Assembly (NCBI GenBank): GCA_947504045.1
Contig: CANNFY010000004.1
Coordinates: 1-64,000 of the forward strand
Direction of reading: 5' to 3'
Source of the DNA: an uncultured Maribacter sp.
Lineage (GTDB): Bacteria > Bacteroidota > Bacteroidia > Flavobacteriales > Flavobacteriaceae
Length of the DNA stretch: 64,000 nt
The notes under the pieces are model-generated. The model searched no databases, was not told the origin of the DNA, and saw only the letters and a program-made list of their open reading frames with translations. A program made the translations under genes and the position numbers. Below, in pieces: positions 6,174 through 13,624 of the stretch (position 1 is its first letter; each line of letters begins with the position of its first letter).

Positions 6174-6875
6174 CTATTTAGATAATTCGTCTAAATATTT
6201 TTTTAAAGCAATACCATATTTAGATGCACTTACTTTATCATCTAAAGAATTATAAATAGAATCTAAATAAATTTTGTTAGCATCCGGTATCTCTTGTAAT
6301 GCTATATATGGTGCTATAGTAGAGTTTGTATTTGTAAGTGCAAAGTTAATCGCATAGGCATAACTTCTTTTTATAGTTTTATCACTTAATTTTTGAACAG
6401 AATCTATTTGCAAAGAATCTAGTGCAATTTTAGAATTTTGAACATTTTGTATTATTTGCATGTTCTTAATATTAAAGTCCGACATAATTTTTCGGTACTC
6501 TTTATATTTTTTATTACTCTCAGAACCAGTAATTTTAGCATTACGATCAAAAGTATCCCAAGAGGTGTTAATAGTTATAACACCAGCTTCTCCAAAAAAT
6601 GAAATACGATCATTAAAATCATTAAAATCTTCTTTCTTTAAATATAAATTAAAAAGCTCAGGACTTTCTACTTCCGTTTTAAATGTAAAAGAACCATTAC
6701 CATCTACCTTTAAAGAATCTATAGTAATTAAAAGAGTGTCATTAAATTTTTGAAGGTATAAATCTCCTTTTTTAAGACCTTTTACGTTTCCTGTTACTGT
6801 CATAGTATTCTGGGTATCTCCCCCACAAGAAATTAATAATAATGTTAAGGTAAGTGCAAGTGCTATTTTTTTCAT
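6174..6875 (-). CDS. DUF4369-domain lipoprotein (no thioredoxin domain)
   Basis: The 233-residue protein has a lipoprotein signal (LLISCGG, lipidated Cys at 17) and an N-terminal DUF4369-like beta domain (about 25-120: TVTGNVKGLKKGDLYLQ, FELFNLYLK-like core). In many Bacteroidota this domain precedes a TlpA/thioredoxin domain. Here the remainder (about 120-233) is helical, and no CxxC is present, so the redox part is missing. It probably sits in the periplasm, anchored in a membrane. It ends at the shared bidirectional terminator and lies upstream of no obvious partner. The role is unknown; it could be a stress- or envelope-related relative of thiol-disulfide lipoproteins. Confidence 0.83.
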   Translation of the reverse strand: MKKIALALTLTLLLISCGGDTQNTMTVTGNVKGLKKGDLYLQKFNDTLLITIDSLKVDGNGSFTFKTEVESPELFNLYLKKEDFNDFNDRISFFGEAGVITINTSWDTFDRNAKITGSESNKKYKEYRKIMSDFNIKNMQIIQNVQNSKIALDSLQIDSVQKLSDKTIKRSYAYAINFALTNTNSTIAPYIALQEIPDANKIYLDSIYNSLDDKVSASKYGIALKKYLDELSK

Positions 6876-6961
6876 TGTATTATTTTATTGCGGCAAATAT
6901 CTTTATTTTTTTTTATTTGTACTGCTAAAGAATAAAAATTAAGAATTTAAAGTAGATTTAT

Positions 6962-8278
6962 TTATAGTGCCGATGCTAGTTCCATTAAATAGGCACACAG
7001 GAGAGCTCCACCAGTACCAACTACATAACCAAAAACTGCAAGTAATACTCCTACCGATGTTAGCGAAGGATGAAATTCTGCAGCTACCACAGGAGCAGAA
7101 GCTGCGCCACCTACATTTGCTTGGCTACCTACTGCTAAGAAAAAATACGGAGCTTTAATTAATTTTGCAACTACTATTAATAATATTGCATGTATTGTAA
7201 TCCAAATAAAGCCTATAGCTATAAGCCCAGGGTTTTCTAGAACCCGACCTAAATCTACCTTCATACCAATTGTAGTAACCAGAATATATATGAACATACC
7301 ACCAATTTTACTGGCTCCAGCTCCTTCATAATTTTTAGCTTTTGTAAAAGATAATGCAATGCCAACTGTAGTTGCAATTACTACCATCCAGAAAAAGTTA
7401 GATCCTAAAAAGGATAAAAAGTTAGTGGAATCTGCTACTGCGGCTATATTTTTTATTAGAAAAGAACTTATATGTTTACCAAAATAATGTGCAGTACCAA
7501 CTGCTGTAAATGCTAAACCTAACATTATCATATAATCACCTAAAGTAGGCACACGCGTAATTTTATCTGTAAACTCTGTTACTTTAATTTTTAGTTTTTC
7601 AATAGCAGAAGTATCTGCTTTAAGCCATGTATCAATTTTTTTGGTTTTACCAACGCCTAGTAAAATAATAGCCATCCAAACGTTGGCAACAAAAATATCT
7701 ACCAAAACCATGCCTCCGTATTTTTCGGGGTTATACTTAAAAATTTCATACATAGCCGCTTGGTTTGCTCCACCGCCAATCCAACTTCCTGCAATAGTAG
7801 AAAGTCCTCTCCAAATTGCATCAAAATCATTACCGCCAACAGATTCTGGTGAAAATATAGAAACAATTAAAATGGCAATTGGCCCACCAATAATTATACC
7901 GGCACTACCAGTTAAAAACATAATTAAAGCTTTGGAACCAAGATTGCTAATCGCTTTTAAGTCTATACTCAAAGTCATTAAAACCAATGCAGCTGGCAAC
8001 AAATACCTGCTAGCCATATAATATAACTTAGAAGTATGCTCTGTAACATTACCTAATGCATCTACAACATGCCATTTTTCGGCAACCACACCAAAAGAAG
8101 ATAAGAGTGCAGGTAATAAATAACACATTAAAACAGCCGGAATAATTGAATAGAATTTTTTCCAAAACCCAGTTTTGATAGAAGAGGTGTAAAAAATAAA
8201 CCCTAAGCAAAGGGCAAGTAGTCCAAAAACAACGGTATCATCTGTAATTAATGGTGGTGGTAATATTTTTAATGTCAT
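6962..8278 (-). CDS. DUF819 family multispanning membrane protein
   Basis: The 438-residue integral membrane protein has about 10-12 hydrophobic helices and matches the DUF819 (YjcL-like) family: LITDDTVVFGLLALCLGF near the start, SIDLKAISNLG, then glycine-rich IAGSWIGGGANQAAMYE and SQANVGGAASAPVVAAEF. The repeated GGGAN/VGGAASAP motifs recall ion-coupled transporters of the sodium:keto-acid/bile-acid type, but the substrate is not known. I place the start at the ATG at 8278 rather than a TTG eight codons upstream. It lies 35 bp downstream of the HAD phosphatase gene on the same strand and is probably in one operon with it. Confidence 0.88.
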   Translation of the reverse strand: MTLKILPPPLITDDTVVFGLLALCLGFIFYTSSIKTGFWKKFYSIIPAVLMCYLLPALLSSFGVVAEKWHVVDALGNVTEHTSKLYYMASRYLLPAALVLMTLSIDLKAISNLGSKALIMFLTGSAGIIIGGPIAILIVSIFSPESVGGNDFDAIWRGLSTIAGSWIGGGANQAAMYEIFKYNPEKYGGMVLVDIFVANVWMAIILLGVGKTKKIDTWLKADTSAIEKLKIKVTEFTDKITRVPTLGDYMIMLGLAFTAVGTAHYFGKHISSFLIKNIAAVADSTNFLSFLGSNFFWMVVIATTVGIALSFTKAKNYEGAGASKIGGMFIYILVTTIGMKVDLGRVLENPGLIAIGFIWITIHAILLIVVAKLIKAPYFFLAVGSQANVGGAASAPVVAAEFHPSLTSVGVLLAVFGYVVGTGGALLCAYLMELASAL

Positions 8279-9224: not shown

Positions 9225-9995
9225 ATGAAAAAAATTATAATATTATTCTTCTTTAGTATACAGATGTCTTTTGGAAATACTTTTTTTTGGTCTAAAAAAG
9301 GACATAGAGTAGTAGGAGAGGTAGCTCAAAAATATTTATCAAGAAAGGCTCAGAAAGAAATTAACAAATTATTAGATGGTCAAAGTTTAGCATCTGTTGC
9401 TAATTATGCAGATTTTATAAAAGCAGATAAAAGATTTAAAGAGTTTAGTGCTTGGCATTATGTTAATTTTCCGGAAGATAAAAAGTATACAGATGTAGAA
9501 CCTAGTAAATATGGCGATATAATACAAGGAATAGAAAAGTGCGTGGCTATTGTAAAAGATAAAAGCAAAAGTAAAGAGGATAGAGTGTTTTATTTAAAAT
9601 TACTGGTTCATTTTATAGGAGATTTACACCAACCATTACATGTTGGTAGGTTAGAAGATAAAGGTGGTAACGATATACAAGTGCAGTGGTTTTCTAAAGG
9701 AAGTAATTTACATAGAGTTTGGGATACTAATATGATAGAAGATCATGGTATGAGCTATACTGAAATTGCAAATACATTACCTAAAATATCTAAAAAGAAA
9801 AAGAAAAGTTTACAAGAAGGAACTATTTATGATTGGGTAGAGGAGTCTCAAGATATAGCAAATAAAGTATACGAGTCTGCAGAAATTGGAGAGAAGCTAA
9901 GTTATAAGTATAGTTATGTTTGGTGGGCAACAGTAGAAAAGCAATTACAAGTAGGAGGAGTTAGGTTAGCTAAGGTTTTAAATAATTTGTTTTAA
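9225..9995 (+). CDS. Secreted S1/P1-family nuclease
   Basis: The 256-residue zinc-dependent nuclease cleaves single-stranded nucleic acids and 3'-nucleotides, here probably in the periplasm or outside the cell to recover phosphate and nucleosides. A signal peptide covers about residues 1-19, leaving a Trp very near the mature N-terminus (FFWSKKGHR), which in this family supplies a zinc ligand through the amino terminus. Other ligands are visible: GHRVVGEVA, HYVNFPED, HFIGDLHQPLHVG, GGNDI and NLHRVWDTNMI. Length and motif order fit the family. It is monocistronic, with its own -7 element and a downstream terminator. Confidence 0.93.
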   Translation: MKKIIILFFFSIQMSFGNTFFWSKKGHRVVGEVAQKYLSRKAQKEINKLLDGQSLASVANYADFIKADKRFKEFSAWHYVNFPEDKKYTDVEPSKYGDIIQGIEKCVAIVKDKSKSKEDRVFYLKLLVHFIGDLHQPLHVGRLEDKGGNDIQVQWFSKGSNLHRVWDTNMIEDHGMSYTEIANTLPKISKKKKKSLQEGTIYDWVEESQDIANKVYESAEIGEKLSYKYSYVWWATVEKQLQVGGVRLAKVLNNLF

Positions 9996-10093: not shown

Positions 10094-10123
10094 AAAAAAT
10101 CGGTTCCCACGGCCGATTTTTTT
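10094..10123. terminator. Bidirectional terminator between nuclease and AraC genes
   Basis: The stem AAAAAATCGG ... CCGATTTTTTT (10094-10103 with 10113-10123) encloses a short loop TTCCCACGG. It is convergent between the nuclease gene and the AraC-family gene, whose stop codon at 10122-10124 overlaps the T-run. Confidence 0.8.
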
Positions 10124-10994
10124 AATGTAATAAAGTTTTTAATTCGTTTCTATATTCTGTAGGGCTTTGTCCTGTAAAAGTTTTAAAAGACTTATTAAAG
10201 TGAGAAAAATTATTAAAGCCACATTCAAAACAAACCTCTGTAATACTTAATGGTTTTTCTGCTAGTAATTTAGATGCGTGTACTAAACGGTACTCATTTA
10301 CAAACTGTGTAAATGTTTTGTTTGTTATTTTTTTAAAATATCTGCAAAAAGATGGTACAGTCATACTAACCATATTAGAAATATGATCTAAAGTAATTTC
10401 TTCGGTAAAATTATTTTTCACATAATTAAAAACAATATTAATACGATCATTATCTTTTACATCTGTTTGTAAAGAAAAACCTTCTGCATTTAAGAATATT
10501 TTTTCAGTAGAGTTTGCTAATTGGTTTAGTATATTCAGAATAGATAATAGTCTTTGAAAATCTGTTTGGTATTCAAGTACTTCAATTTTATCTCCAAGTA
10601 ATTTTTTTGTTTTACCAGAAAAAGCTATGCCACCACTAGAAGCATCAAAAAGAGATTTTATTTTTTTCATTTCAGGAATTTTAAAAAAATCATTTCCTAA
10701 AAAGTCTAATTTCATTTGTACAACAGTTTCACTTGTATTGCCAGTTAAACTGTCTGTAAGCCCACAATGTGGTAAATTACTTCCTATTAAGATTAAATCT
10801 CCTTCGGAATAATACGAAACATGGCTTCCAATTTGCCTTTTACCAGAACCACCATTTACATAAACTAATTCTATTTCTGGGTGGTAATGCCATGCAGTGT
10901 AATTATTTAGATTGTCTTCATCAAACTTTTGGTACGTAAAAGAGTTACCAAAGTTAGGTTCTATAGCTTCAAAAGCAGGTTTGGGATTTAGCAT
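10122..10994 (-). CDS. AraC-family transcriptional regulator with cupin sensor domain
   Basis: The 290-residue regulator has an N-terminal cupin-like ligand domain (about 20-120; AWHYHPEIELVYV, GSGKRQIG, GDLILIGSNLPH) and a C-terminal double helix-turn-helix (about 185-288; ITLDHISNMVSMTVPSFCRYF, then ITEVCFECGFNNFSHFNKSF and GQSPTEYR). The cupin type is common in regulators of sugar or glycan use. It is transcribed away from the first of three paralogous secreted-protein genes. The spacer between them (10995-11204) and the spacer before paralogue 3 both hold the same pair of ACTAAATTAACC-like direct repeats 21 bp apart, which is a spacing typical of AraC binding. I infer that it controls those genes and maybe itself. 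Confidence 0.93.
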   Translation of the reverse strand: MLNPKPAFEAIEPNFGNSFTYQKFDEDNLNNYTAWHYHPEIELVYVNGGSGKRQIGSHVSYYSEGDLILIGSNLPHCGLTDSLTGNTSETVVQMKLDFLGNDFFKIPEMKKIKSLFDASSGGIAFSGKTKKLLGDKIEVLEYQTDFQRLLSILNILNQLANSTEKIFLNAEGFSLQTDVKDNDRINIVFNYVKNNFTEEITLDHISNMVSMTVPSFCRYFKKITNKTFTQFVNEYRLVHASKLLAEKPLSITEVCFECGFNNFSHFNKSFKTFTGQSPTEYRNELKTLLH

Positions 10995-11045: not shown

Positions 11046-11078
11046 ACTAAATTAACCTAAATGTATATTAAATTAACC
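11046..11078 (+). promoter_or_regulatory. Putative AraC-type operator: two direct repeats before paralogue 1
   Basis: ACTAAATTAACC (11046-11057) and ATTAAATTAACC (11067-11078) are direct repeats with a 21-bp period, or two helical turns. A weaker third half (ACTAAATTGG) begins at 11084. The end of the second repeat is 59 bp before the -33 TTG. The same arrangement and distance recur before paralogue 3. Binding by the adjacent AraC regulator is inferred. Confidence 0.6.
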
Positions 11079-11136
11079 TTTAGTACTAAATTGGGGTTTG
11101 TGGTGGGTAAAATAGCATATATATTGGAAAAATGTG

Positions 11137-11170
11137 TTGTATTTTAAATGGTAAAGCTGGTGTATGTTTG
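11137..11170 (+). promoter_or_regulatory. Promoter of paralogue 1 (-33 TTG, -7 TATGTTTG)
   Basis: TTG (11137-11139), a 23-bp spacer and TATGTTTG (11163-11170) match the Bacteroidota TTG/TAnnTTTG promoter. The spacer end AAAGCTGGTG and the downstream TACTGTCGTTAATTA are the same in all three paralogues, giving a leader of about 30 nt before the ATG at 11205. Confidence 0.8.
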
Positions 11171-11204: not shown

Positions 11205-11789
11205 ATGAAAGCACTTTTAAAAATCACAACAGTAGTTGCCTTTATGTTTATTGCAGCAATAAGCATGGCAAAAGAGCCAAAATTAATTTTGAGAGCTTAC
11301 AGTGAAGCAAAAACGTTAGTGTTAGAGTTAGAAGATGTATCTAGCAATACTTACATTACGCTTAAAGATGCCCAAGACAATGTTATTTATGCAGAACGTG
11401 TAACTAATGCATTGTATTCTAAAAAATTTAATTTAAAAAATTTAGCAGAAGGTCTTTACTTTTTTGAAACAGAAAGTGAGTTTAAATCAATTTCTTATTC
11501 TTTAAAAGTAAAAGATAATGAACTGGTAATTCTGGATAAACAAGAAAATATGAAACCGTTTTTTATAGAAGAAGAAAAACACGTTTCTTTAAACTTCTTA
11601 AATTTAGATAAGAAAGATGTTTCTATAAAAGTTTATGATGAAGATAGCAGATTAGTTTTTGAAGAAGAAATTACAGATGAAATGATTGTAGAAAAGTCTT
11701 TCGATTTTTCTGGAGCATATGAAGGAAACTATACAGTGTCTATTTCTTACGGAGATAAAAGTTATAGTAAATACATTGCAGTAGAATAA
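11205..11789 (+). CDS. Tandem paralogue 1: small secreted protein with two sorting-domain-like repeats
   Basis: The 194-residue protein has a signal peptide (about 1-22, ending ISMA) and no enzyme domain. The mature part is two similar halves. Residues about 35-110 contain YITLKDAQDNVIYAERVT...FNLKNLAEGLYFFE. Residues about 120-194 contain VSIKVYDEDSRLVFEEEIT...FDFSGAYEGNYTVS. Each half has the pattern of a type A T9SS C-terminal sorting domain (I-v-D-x-v-E...lsxlxxGxYxv), though no cargo is attached. The ATG at 11205 is chosen because the leader and start are conserved in the two sister genes; an upstream start at 11148 lies inside the promoter. Exported, probably periplasmic or surface; function unknown. 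Confidence 0.85.
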   Translation: MKALLKITTVVAFMFIAAISMAKEPKLILRAYSEAKTLVLELEDVSSNTYITLKDAQDNVIYAERVTNALYSKKFNLKNLAEGLYFFETESEFKSISYSLKVKDNELVILDKQENMKPFFIEEEKHVSLNFLNLDKKDVSIKVYDEDSRLVFEEEITDEMIVEKSFDFSGAYEGNYTVSISYGDKSYSKYIAVE

Positions 11790-11814
11790 TTAATTAAGTT
11801 TAATATTAAATTAT

Positions 11815-11842
11815 AAAGGAGGCTATTTTGCCTCCTTTTTTT
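11815..11842 (+). terminator. Intrinsic terminator after paralogue 1
   Basis: The stem AAAGGAGGC/GCCTCCTTT with loop TATTTT is followed by a T-run. The GGAGGC/GCCTCC stem is related to those after paralogues 2 and 3. Confidence 0.9.
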
Positions 11843-11958
11843 GCACCTATTATTTACCACCCTTATATAAATAGTCCGCTTAAAAAGGGCTTTACCTTCT
11901 TTAATTTACCTCTAAATTTTTAATAAGGTTAAAATAGCACATAAATAGGAAAAGTAAG

Positions 11959-11992
11959 TTGTAGTCTTACGAGTAAAGCTGGTGTATGTTTG
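11959..11992 (+). promoter_or_regulatory. Promoter of paralogue 2 (-33 TTG, -7 TATGTTTG)
   Basis: TTG (11959-11961), a 23-bp spacer and TATGTTTG (11985-11992) form the same promoter and leader as in paralogues 1 and 3. The AraC-type repeat pair upstream is not clearly kept here; only degenerate TTAATTTACC-like sequence is present. Confidence 0.78.
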
Positions 11993-12027
11993 TACTGTCG
12001 TTAATTATGAATTTAAAATTTAACATT

Positions 12028-12618
12028 ATGAAAGCACTTTTAAAAATTACCATCGTAGTTGCCTATATGTTTATTATAGCAATAAGCATTGCAAAAGCAA
12101 AAGAGCCAAAATTAGTTTTAAAGGCTTATAGCGAAGCCAAAACGTTAGTTTTAGATTTAGAGAATGTATCTAGCAATACATACATTACACTTAAAGACTC
12201 TGAGAGTAATATTATTTACTCAGAAAATGTAACTAAGCATTTATATGCTAAGAAGTTTAATCTTAAGAATTTAGTAGACGGAATGTACTTTTTTCAGACA
12301 GAAGGGCAGTTTAAATCTACTACATATACCTTAAAAGTAGAAGATAATAAATTAATAATACTAGATGAGGTAGAAACTATAAAACCATACTTTGTAGAAA
12401 CTAAAGGTCATGTTTCTTTAAACTTTTTAAATTTAGATAAGAAAGATGTTTCTATAAAAGTATTTGATGAAGAAAACAGATTAGTTTTTGAAGAAGAAGT
12501 TACTAATAAAATGATAGTAGAAAAGGCTTTTGACTTTTCTGGTGCATTTGATGGAAATTATACAGTTTCTCTAACATGTGGAGAAAATAGTTACGAAGAG
12601 TATATAATAGTTGATTAA
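12028..12618 (+). CDS. Tandem paralogue 2: small secreted protein with two sorting-domain-like repeats
   Basis: At 196 residues this is the most divergent of the three sisters, with two extra residues (AK) at the signal-peptide end (ISIAKAKEP). The two-repeat layout is the same: repeat one has YITLKDSESNIIYSENVT and NLVDGMYFFQ; repeat two has VSIKVFDEENRLVFEEEVT and FSGAFDGNYTVS, ending with EEYIIVD. The start at 12028 matches the sisters' conserved MKALLKIT. It is flanked by its own promoter and terminator, so although tandem the genes are not one operon. It differs in charge and surface residues, so paralogue-specific ligands are possible. Function unknown. Confidence 0.85.
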   Translation: MKALLKITIVVAYMFIIAISIAKAKEPKLVLKAYSEAKTLVLDLENVSSNTYITLKDSESNIIYSENVTKHLYAKKFNLKNLVDGMYFFQTEGQFKSTTYTLKVEDNKLIILDEVETIKPYFVETKGHVSLNFLNLDKKDVSIKVFDEENRLVFEEEVTNKMIVEKAFDFSGAFDGNYTVSLTCGENSYEEYIIVD

Positions 12619-12641
12619 GTTAATTAAGTTAATTTTTATTA

Positions 12642-12668
12642 GGGAGGCTGGAGAGCCTCCCTTTTTTT
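12642..12668 (+). terminator. Intrinsic terminator after paralogue 2
   Basis: The perfect stem GGGAGGCT/AGCCTCCC with a GGAG loop is followed by seven T. Stem and loop are identical to the terminator after paralogue 3, so the duplicated unit included the terminator. Confidence 0.92.
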
Positions 12669-12879
12669 GCTTTATACTTTTCTTAATCCTCCTTTAGGTT
12701 TTAGGTTAAATGTATAGAGAAAGTAATAGTAGTAGATTATAAAAAGAAAATTCTATAAGTAATTTATAATCTTATACAACTATTTAAATTTTACACTACA
12801 CCTATATAGTAGTTAAAAAAATAGAATAGTCTTTTAATTTTTAAAAGTTACTTAGGAGTGCTAAAAATTGCAATTTGTT

Positions 12880-12912
12880 ACTAAATTAACCAAAAAGTAT
12901 ACTAAATTAACC
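12880..12912 (+). promoter_or_regulatory. Putative AraC-type operator: two direct repeats before paralogue 3
   Basis: ACTAAATTAACC occurs at 12880-12891 and again at 12901-12912 as exact repeats with a 21-bp period. The second copy ends 59 bp before the -33 TTG, exactly as at paralogue 1. Confidence 0.62.
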
Positions 12913-12970
12913 CATGGTTAATCCGGTGTATGTGCATTGGGTAAAATAGCATATAAATAGGAGAAATGTG

Positions 12971-13004
12971 TTGTGTTATAAATGGTAAAGCTGGTGTATG
13001 TTTG
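12971..13004 (+). promoter_or_regulatory. Promoter of paralogue 3 (-33 TTG, -7 TATGTTTG)
   Basis: TTG (12971-12973), a 23-bp spacer and TATGTTTG (12997-13004) are followed by the shared TACTGTCGTTAATTA leader. Confidence 0.8.
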
Positions 13005-13039
13005 TACTGTCGTTAATTATTACTTAAATATCAGACATT

Positions 13040-13624
13040 ATGAAAGCACTTTTAAAAATCACAACAGTAGTTGCCTTTATGTTTATTGCAGCAATAAGCA
13101 TGGCAAAAGAGCCAAAATTAATTTTGACAGCTTACAGTGAAGCAAAAACGTTAGTTTTAGAGTTAGAAGATGTATCTAGCAATACTAGCATTACGCTTAA
13201 AGATGCCCAGAACAATATTATTTATGCAGAAAGCATAAAAAATGACTTGTATTCTAAGAAATTTAATCTTAAAAATTTAGTAGACGGAGTATACTTCTTT
13301 GAAACTGAAGGAGAGTTTAAGTCTACAGTATATTCTATAAAAGTAGAAGATAACTCGTTAGCAATTCTTGATAAAGAAGAGGTAATTAAGCCATTCTTTA
13401 CAGAAGTAGAAGAGCATGTTTCTCTTAACCTATTAAATTTAGATAAGAAAGATGTATCTATAAAAGTTTACGATGAAGATAGTAGATTAGTTTTTGAAGA
13501 AGAAATTACTAATGAAATGATTGTAGAAAAGTCTTTTGATTTTTCTGGAGCATATGAAGGAAATTATACTGTATCTGTTTCTTACGGAGATAAAAGTTAT
13601 GAAAAATACTTTACAGTAAAATAA
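13040..13624 (+). CDS. Tandem paralogue 3: small secreted protein with two sorting-domain-like repeats
   Basis: The 194-residue protein has the same signal peptide as paralogue 1 and two sorting-domain-like beta repeats: SITLKDAQNNIIYAESIK with NLVDGVYFFE, and VSIKVYDEDSRLVFEEEIT with FSGAYEGNYTVS. The first roughly 150 nt and the last third are almost identical in DNA to paralogue 1, with only a few substitutions in the first block, while the middle (about residues 55-120) is clearly diverged. This mosaic suggests gene conversion or recent duplication with selection on the middle. The genes are separately promoted. Exported; no catalytic residues, no Cys, no lipobox. Function unknown. Confidence 0.85.
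   Translation: MKALLKITTVVAFMFIAAISMAKEPKLILTAYSEAKTLVLELEDVSSNTSITLKDAQNNIIYAESIKNDLYSKKFNLKNLVDGVYFFETEGEFKSTVYSIKVEDNSLAILDKEEVIKPFFTEVEEHVSLNLLNLDKKDVSIKVYDEDSRLVFEEEITNEMIVEKSFDFSGAYEGNYTVSVSYGDKSYEKYFTVK

Follow-up and report, generated by a model that had tools for sequence, protein, structure and literature searches.

The window analysed here is a stretch of 64,000 nucleotides from an uncultured Maribacter sp. (assembly GCA_947504045.1, contig CANNFY010000004.1, positions 1 to 64,000 of the forward strand). It contains three tandem genes for small proteins with a signal peptide (genes 1 to 3, below called the trio) and, divergent from gene 1, the gene of an AraC-family regulator. The following features were located in this region:

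10122..10994, minus strand: AraC-family regulator, 290 amino acids (aa), weak N-terminal cupin match, C-terminal HTH_18, divergent from gene 1
11048..11078, plus strand: pair of direct repeats TAAATTAACC (21 bp apart) between the two divergent genes; proposed AraC half-sites
11106..11141, plus strand: 36-bp control element (proposed operator) before gene 1, found by pattern search of the own genome
11163..11170, plus strand: TATGTTTG box of gene 1
11205..11789, plus strand: gene 1, signal peptide and two immunoglobulin (Ig)-like modules, 194 aa
11815..11838, plus strand: terminator-like hairpin after gene 1, seen by eye and not reported by the hairpin scan
11928..11963, plus strand: control element before gene 2
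11985..11992, plus strand: TATGTTTG box of gene 2
12028..12618, plus strand: gene 2, same architecture as gene 1, 196 aa
12641..12662, plus strand: terminator-like hairpin after gene 2, from the scan
12882..12912, plus strand: pair of direct repeats TAAATTAACC (21 bp apart) before gene 3
12940..12975, plus strand: control element before gene 3
12997..13004, plus strand: TATGTTTG box of gene 3
13040..13624, plus strand: gene 3, same architecture as gene 1, 194 aa
13650..13669, plus strand: terminator-like hairpin after gene 3, from the scan

A sequence-only reading of the trio had described three tandem genes for secreted proteins, each made of a signal peptide and two mutually similar beta modules that resemble type A C-terminal sorting domains (CTDs) of the type IX secretion system (T9SS), with no cargo domain. 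The gene structure was borne out. Genes 2 and 3 are 71% and 84% identical to gene 1. Judged by eye, all three proteins start with a hydrophobic signal peptide that lacks a lipobox cysteine, and beyond the signal peptide and the two modules no further domain was recognised in them. The two halves are homologous: their family profiles aligned in hhalign with a score of 46.4 (probability 95.8), whereas the best of 60 column shuffles scored 16.3, and a chance similarity of the halves was rejected on these values. Genes 1 and 3 contain exactly the sorting-domain-like motif quoted in the sequence-only reading, and gene 2 a slightly altered form of it. The description of the modules as free-standing, duplicated and sorting-domain-like was right, and they are of the Ig type.

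The mature proteins are acidic (isoelectric point 4.5–4.8). Since the ratio of nonsynonymous to synonymous substitution rates among the three copies is 0.19–0.23, we regard the trio as genes under purifying selection; an artefact or a pseudogene was rejected for the same reason. A fourth, distant family gene (25% identity) is situated on another contig of the same genome (C1:630859). PADLOC returned nothing for gene 1, gene 3 and the regulator.

Each gene of the trio is preceded by the control element and by the TATGTTTG box, which we take to fit the TAnnTTTG promoter box of the Bacteroidota, and the distance from the start of the element to the box is exactly 57 bp in all three copies. The repeats TAAATTAACC precede genes 1 and 3, and similar repeats were seen by eye in the intergenic regions of relatives. 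As every copy has its own element and box, and hairpins follow the copies, each copy looks like a transcription unit of its own. A scan for sigma-70 promoters gave no signal (18 promoter-like sites, 16.4 expected).

The occurrence of the control element was followed with a 28-base pattern derived from own and related sites. Allowing up to three mismatches, the 3.46 Mb genome contains four sites, each in front of a different one of its four family genes, and none for the reversed pattern; given the origin of the pattern, the finding is that the genome has no other sites. With a slightly different pattern, 36 sites were obtained in 26 genomes among 99 relatives (reversed control: 2). Judged against the 58 strongest family places, 27 of the 36 are on the strand of a family gene and at most 400 bp before it, three are in the same gap on the opposite strand and six elsewhere; one of these six (genome G058) is placed by its coordinates in the interval that separates a family gene from its AraC neighbour. 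Furthermore, a 36-bp matrix was built from 16 sites and scored on upstream regions of 320 bp, those of 108 family entries (18 of which carry training sites, and a few of which are doubles) and those of 228 control genes from the same neighbourhoods. Among the 90 held-out family upstream regions 68 scored above the maximum of the controls (4.05) and 73 above their 99th percentile.

The regulator matches HTH_18 with 82.9 bits (cut-off 33.6) and HTH_AraC with 57.1 bits, also above the cut-off, and its WHxHPExEL and LPHxG positions are conserved in 21 sequences. The family was matched in 104 genomes, and in 70 of these we examined 71 family clusters. A divergent AraC gene within 4.5 kb was found beside 64 of them. 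The seven remaining clusters belong to genomes G319, G021, G087, G459, G392, G223 and G291. For G319 the fetched stretch stops inside a likely AraC gene (75.6 bits, below our limit of 100), and the last five also have no control element. The genome of the window has 17 AraC matches, and the two most similar to the regulator (100% and 48% identity) adjoin its two family clusters, the next ones following at 35–36%. Mere local synteny was considered as an explanation of the pairing and rejected: the fourth family gene lies on another contig and is accompanied by an AraC gene of its own, and the remaining genes are arranged differently there.

A regulator orthologue was counted at E<=1e-80, with the addition of G033, where the gene is split over two frames. 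Among 149 relatives, 51 have both the regulator and the family, three the regulator alone, four the family alone and 91 neither (Fisher 2.9e-31, kinship ignored). In three of the four genomes with the family alone (G095, G102, G122) the matches are only weak (E 1.5e-4 to 6.3e-4). As for the regulator-only genomes, G069 and G019 do have a divergent family gene that was missed by the first search, and in G013 the element is present with no recognisable family frame. At this last locus (L181, near 4273) the regulator and an element-like site (19.6 bits) stand without a recognisable family gene, perhaps as a relic.

In the neighbourhoods compared, the surroundings beyond the AraC gene are variable and gave no hint at a function. 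In the window an S1/P1 nuclease gene (9225–9995, 230 bits) adjoins the regulator; the nuclease cluster (c2) also occurs close to the family in many neighbourhoods that are Maribacter-like, whereas in the others it does not. Some loci deviate in their arrangement. In G033 (locus L057) the regulator is split over two overlapping frames (6784–7269 and 7236–7682) next to an intact family gene. In G021 (locus L185, C1:1033000–1044000) the orthologous regulator is far from five family genes, and an element-like site (28.0 bits) at this locus faces away from the regulator, toward an alpha/beta hydrolase-like frame as judged by eye. At locus L003 (4176 to 6001) an extra opposite-strand frame of about 430 aa is found between two family copies.

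We considered two alternatives for the nature of the modules. First, the trio proteins could be small T9SS cargo, the N-terminal Ig module being the cargo and the C-terminal one a divergent type A sorting domain; second, the modules could belong to DUF3244 (PF11589), a domain for which we found no function in the literature. The profiles gave points to both. With whole proteins 1 to 3, Por_Secre_tail (PF18962) scored 32.8, 28.4 and 29.4 bits (cut-off 27) and DUF3244 36.6, 30.3 and 29.8 bits (cut-off 25), so that all three pass both models, whereas TIGR04183 (24.1, 17.4 and 22.4; cut-off 23) is passed by gene 1 alone. The sequence-only reading had suggested searching with each half, and here the sorting-domain models fell short: Por_Secre_tail reached 18.4–21.8 bits and its cut-off in none of the six halves, and TIGR04183 gave 17.8, 13.0 and 17.6 for the C halves and 12.5 for the sole N half among the matches listed. 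DUF3244 scored 16.3–25.4 bits, and one of the six halves, a C half with 25.4 bits, reached the cut-off. In the alignment of 38 family members, 30 match DUF3244, 28 Por_Secre_tail and 20 TIGR04183 at E<=0.01. A six-frame search of the own genome for DUF3244 domains gave 23.7 bits at best and no match above the cut-off, and the sequence searches of the PDB (gene 3, family profile and C-half profile) returned no match better than E 0.064.

The structure of the gene 3 protein was modelled at full length from 10 sequences of one genus. Two all-beta domains were predicted, with a predicted local distance difference test score (pLDDT) of 81.5 and a predicted template modelling score (pTM) of 0.65. 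Because the fold search with the whole protein gave generic tandems of Ig and fibronectin type III domains (best Z 7.8; RgpB CTD, Z 7.2), the C half was folded by itself. This model has seven strands (pLDDT 82.9, pTM 0.70), and the solved folds closest to it are DUF3244 proteins: 3sd2 with Z 11.6, 3d33 with Z 11.1 (root-mean-square deviation 1.8) and 4g5a with Z 9.4. The T9SS CTDs follow with NucA (9.3), mirolase (9.0), RemA (8.7), RgpB (8.3), RemZ (8.2) and PorZ (7.7), interleaved with fibronectin-type domains from Z 8.8 downward. DUF3244 structures therefore rank first, though by the rule of the structural tool the third of them is tied with the CTDs of NucA and mirolase. With Foldseek the C module gave four matches at E<0.001, all of them DUF3244 chains. 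The seven-strand Ig fold of solved CTDs is present in the C module, and it brings this module close to them, but it is not specific, as other Ig folds have similar Z values.

The motifs of type A sorting domains were compared between the 38 family C halves and 15 CTDs of the own genome that pass TIGR04183. Motif A, Asn-Pro, is present in 14 of the 15 CTDs but in only one family C half, and it is missing in all three trio proteins. The G-x-Y of motif D is shared, with 30 of 38 family C halves (the trio included) and 14 of 15 CTDs. As to motif E, a lysine with two hydrophobic residues within the last ten positions was found in 11 of 38 family members versus 11 of 15 CTDs. Genes 1 and 3 do have, close to the C-terminus, a lysine followed by hydrophobic residues, which would suit a sorting domain, but by eye it is one residue off the usual register, and gene 2 has none. 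A review describes the last 13 CTD residues, notably the motif-E lysines, as required for efficient secretion (PMC10202324), and in another publication a conserved lysine is placed in strand 7 of the CTDs, tags after it being tolerated (PMC11285876).

The architecture of the family is variable. In the trio proteins the C module is terminal and the N module internal. Within the same taxonomic family, genus g118 encodes single-module proteins of the N type, about 135 aa long, with as many as five genes in an array; their Por_Secre_tail match (26.8, 28.9 and 27.5 bits, cut-off 27) covers about residues 40–102 of 131–134 and thus stops some 30 residues short of the C-terminus. These N-only relatives, under the same control, have no C module, which speaks against a T9SS cargo with a C-terminal sorting domain. 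Two genomes encode proteins with a single module of the C type, 123 and 128 aa long (loci L164 and L169). All seven single-module loci, of N or C type, adjoin an AraC gene. As single-module relatives of either type keep this neighbour, each of the two modules is dispensable. Genomes also differ in how many modules a protein has and how many family genes a cluster contains.

From these comparisons, the resemblance to sorting domains is real, but for the C module modelled alone DUF3244 is closer. The likeness to T9SS CTDs would reflect a shared fold family and not a sorting function, and the modules are probably not sorting signals. Because motif A was looked for and found missing, we place the trio outside the type A sorting domains, as a tandem variant of DUF3244-like Ig proteins. 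Of the sequence-only reading, the resemblance as such stands, with all whole proteins passing PF18962; the assignment of the modules as sorting domains is not supported, in view of the Por_Secre_tail scores of single halves below the cut-off, the nearer DUF3244 folds, the missing motif A, the poorly conserved motif E, the internal N module and the early end of the profile match in single-module relatives.

The T9SS itself is present wherever the family is. SprA (TIGR04189) was found in all 55 family-positive genomes of the 149 relatives versus 83 of the 94 negative ones (Fisher 0.007, kinship ignored), and in 49 of 49 further family-positive genomes, which makes 104 of 104 genomes with a family match. 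In a phylum sample all 57 positive and 247 of 338 negative genomes have it (kinship ignored). Several negative genomes are reduced or incomplete. The co-occurrence that the sequence-only reading had named as support was therefore observed, yet SprA is frequent in general (138 of 149 relatives, 304 of 395 genomes of the sample). The co-occurrence shows no T9SS role and is compatible with shared ancestry alone. This bears on the suggestion of the sequence-only reading that the proteins could be decoys, inhibitors or adaptors, here taken as acting on the T9SS. The CTD-like fold and the constant presence of SprA would agree with it; against it stand the motif differences from the CTDs of the own genome, the dedicated AraC control and the frequency of SprA in relatives lacking the family. 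We consider this role very improbable.

For the main competitor, the small T9SS cargo, there is a precedent in PorA of Porphyromonas gingivalis, likewise a small exported protein with signal peptide, Ig-like and CTD-like parts, which acts in signalling according to the available part of PMC7712824. As described there, PorA combines a FimH-like N domain with a true CTD, which binds PorV, and it feeds into PorXY-SigP, whereas the trio has DUF3244-like modules and would be under AraC control. Taking the profile matches, the CTD-like fold and SprA together with the motif differences, we regard the cargo explanation as unlikely, though less so than the other alternatives. In comparison with the type A CTDs (TIGR04183, PF18962), the trio shares the seven-strand Ig fold, the G-x-Y near the end and the presence of a T9SS in the same genomes; it differs, with its family, in the missing Asn-Pro motif, the unconserved motif-E lysine, one internal module and the variable order and number of modules. 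Truer free-standing sorting domains than the trio are found elsewhere in the own genome, where three short frames of about 100–108 aa (L009, C1:1241356–1241568; L011, C1:1241836–1242048; L014, C1:237252–237476) encode nothing but a signal peptide followed by an evident type A sorting domain, which has PNP and terminal lysines. L009, L011 and L014 include one pair of neighbours, and Fjoh_0547 (112 aa), named in PMC7712824, may be compared with them.

The solved DUF3244 proteins (3sd2, BT_3571; 3d33, BVU_0276; 4g5a, BT_1867) are single-domain chains of 86–99 residues, while the trio has two tandem modules, several tandem genes and an AraC partner. Bacteroides, the source of these proteins, is not known to have a T9SS. 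In the literature two DUF3244 genes of B. thetaiotaomicron are listed with the genes that depend on iron. Among AraC/XylS regulators with a cupin sensor, AraC and RhaS resemble the trio regulator in having HTH_18 and a divergent target, and direct repeats 21 bp apart occur in araI, as in the TAAATTAACC repeats. Unlike AraC and RhaS, the only target found here is a family of exported Ig proteins, and no transporter or catabolic enzyme is constant beside it in the neighbourhoods compared.

Starting from what was observed, namely the gene structure, the fold class, the conserved neighbour and the conserved element, we favour a dedicated regulator-effector module as the explanation: the trio would be its amplified output, and the effectors exported, non-sorting Ig proteins. 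We give it a probability of roughly 0.6, the exact job of the proteins being less sure. The regulator, with its conserved, cupin-like N-terminus, would most likely sense a small molecule. Conservation suggests the direct repeats and the 36-bp element as its binding sites, and it may switch on each copy from its own promoter, as the element and box before every copy would allow. The proteins would then be exported by the Sec pathway, judging from the signal peptide seen by eye. With two DUF3244-type Ig modules and no recognised catalytic domain they are probably non-catalytic and most likely bind or scaffold a partner, either in the periplasm or at the surface. The main feature of the locus, its divergent AraC regulator with the conserved control element, was absent from the sequence-only reading.

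Several points weigh against this explanation. The cupin matches of the regulator lie slightly under the Pfam cut-offs (Cupin_2 26.9, cut-off 27.2; AraC_binding 20.9, cut-off 21.1), and the direct repeats were interpreted as half-sites by eye. In G021 and G009 (the latter outside the 71 clusters) the orthologous regulator is located elsewhere in the genome, away from the family genes, and four loci that adjoin the regulator (L126, L120, L173, L044) have no recognisable element. Many held-out genes of the matrix test are closely related to training genes, and a few of the entries occur twice. That the proteins would bind or scaffold something is drawn solely from the fold and the absence of an enzyme match.

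Such a role could also be that of a biofilm or surface-matrix scaffold like RbmA, an exported protein whose tandem fibronectin-like domains bind polysaccharide. The exported tandem Ig modules without a catalytic domain would fit, and RbmA chains do match single modules (4kkp, Z 7.0, 81 aligned residues; 4be6, Z 6.7, 78 aligned), but Z values below 8 are common among Ig folds, and clustering of the neighbourhoods compared gave no polysaccharide gene constant beside the family. We think this improbable.

Within the favoured explanation, that of a dedicated regulator-effector module, a more specific version is tentative: in these Bacteroidota one cupin-AraC regulator might have one output, its regulon consisting of the exported Ig proteins and perhaps its own gene. 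Outside the cytoplasm the proteins might handle the very ligand that is read inside by the regulator; this would make a feedback loop, with the tandem copies setting its gain. No description of a module of regulator and Ig proteins was found in the literature searched, most subscription papers being outside this search.

A DUF3244-like exported domain hereby gains a specific regulator and a predicted operator, and the inducing signal becomes findable. The trio also calls for caution, as a profile may put the label "T9SS sorting domain" on short proteins of another kind. As the family is widespread, with 55 of 149 relatives and 57 of 395 genomes of the phylum sample (some of the latter being cross-matches in long frames or frames with stops, e.g. 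G204, G255, G336 and G164), a function found for it would apply widely.

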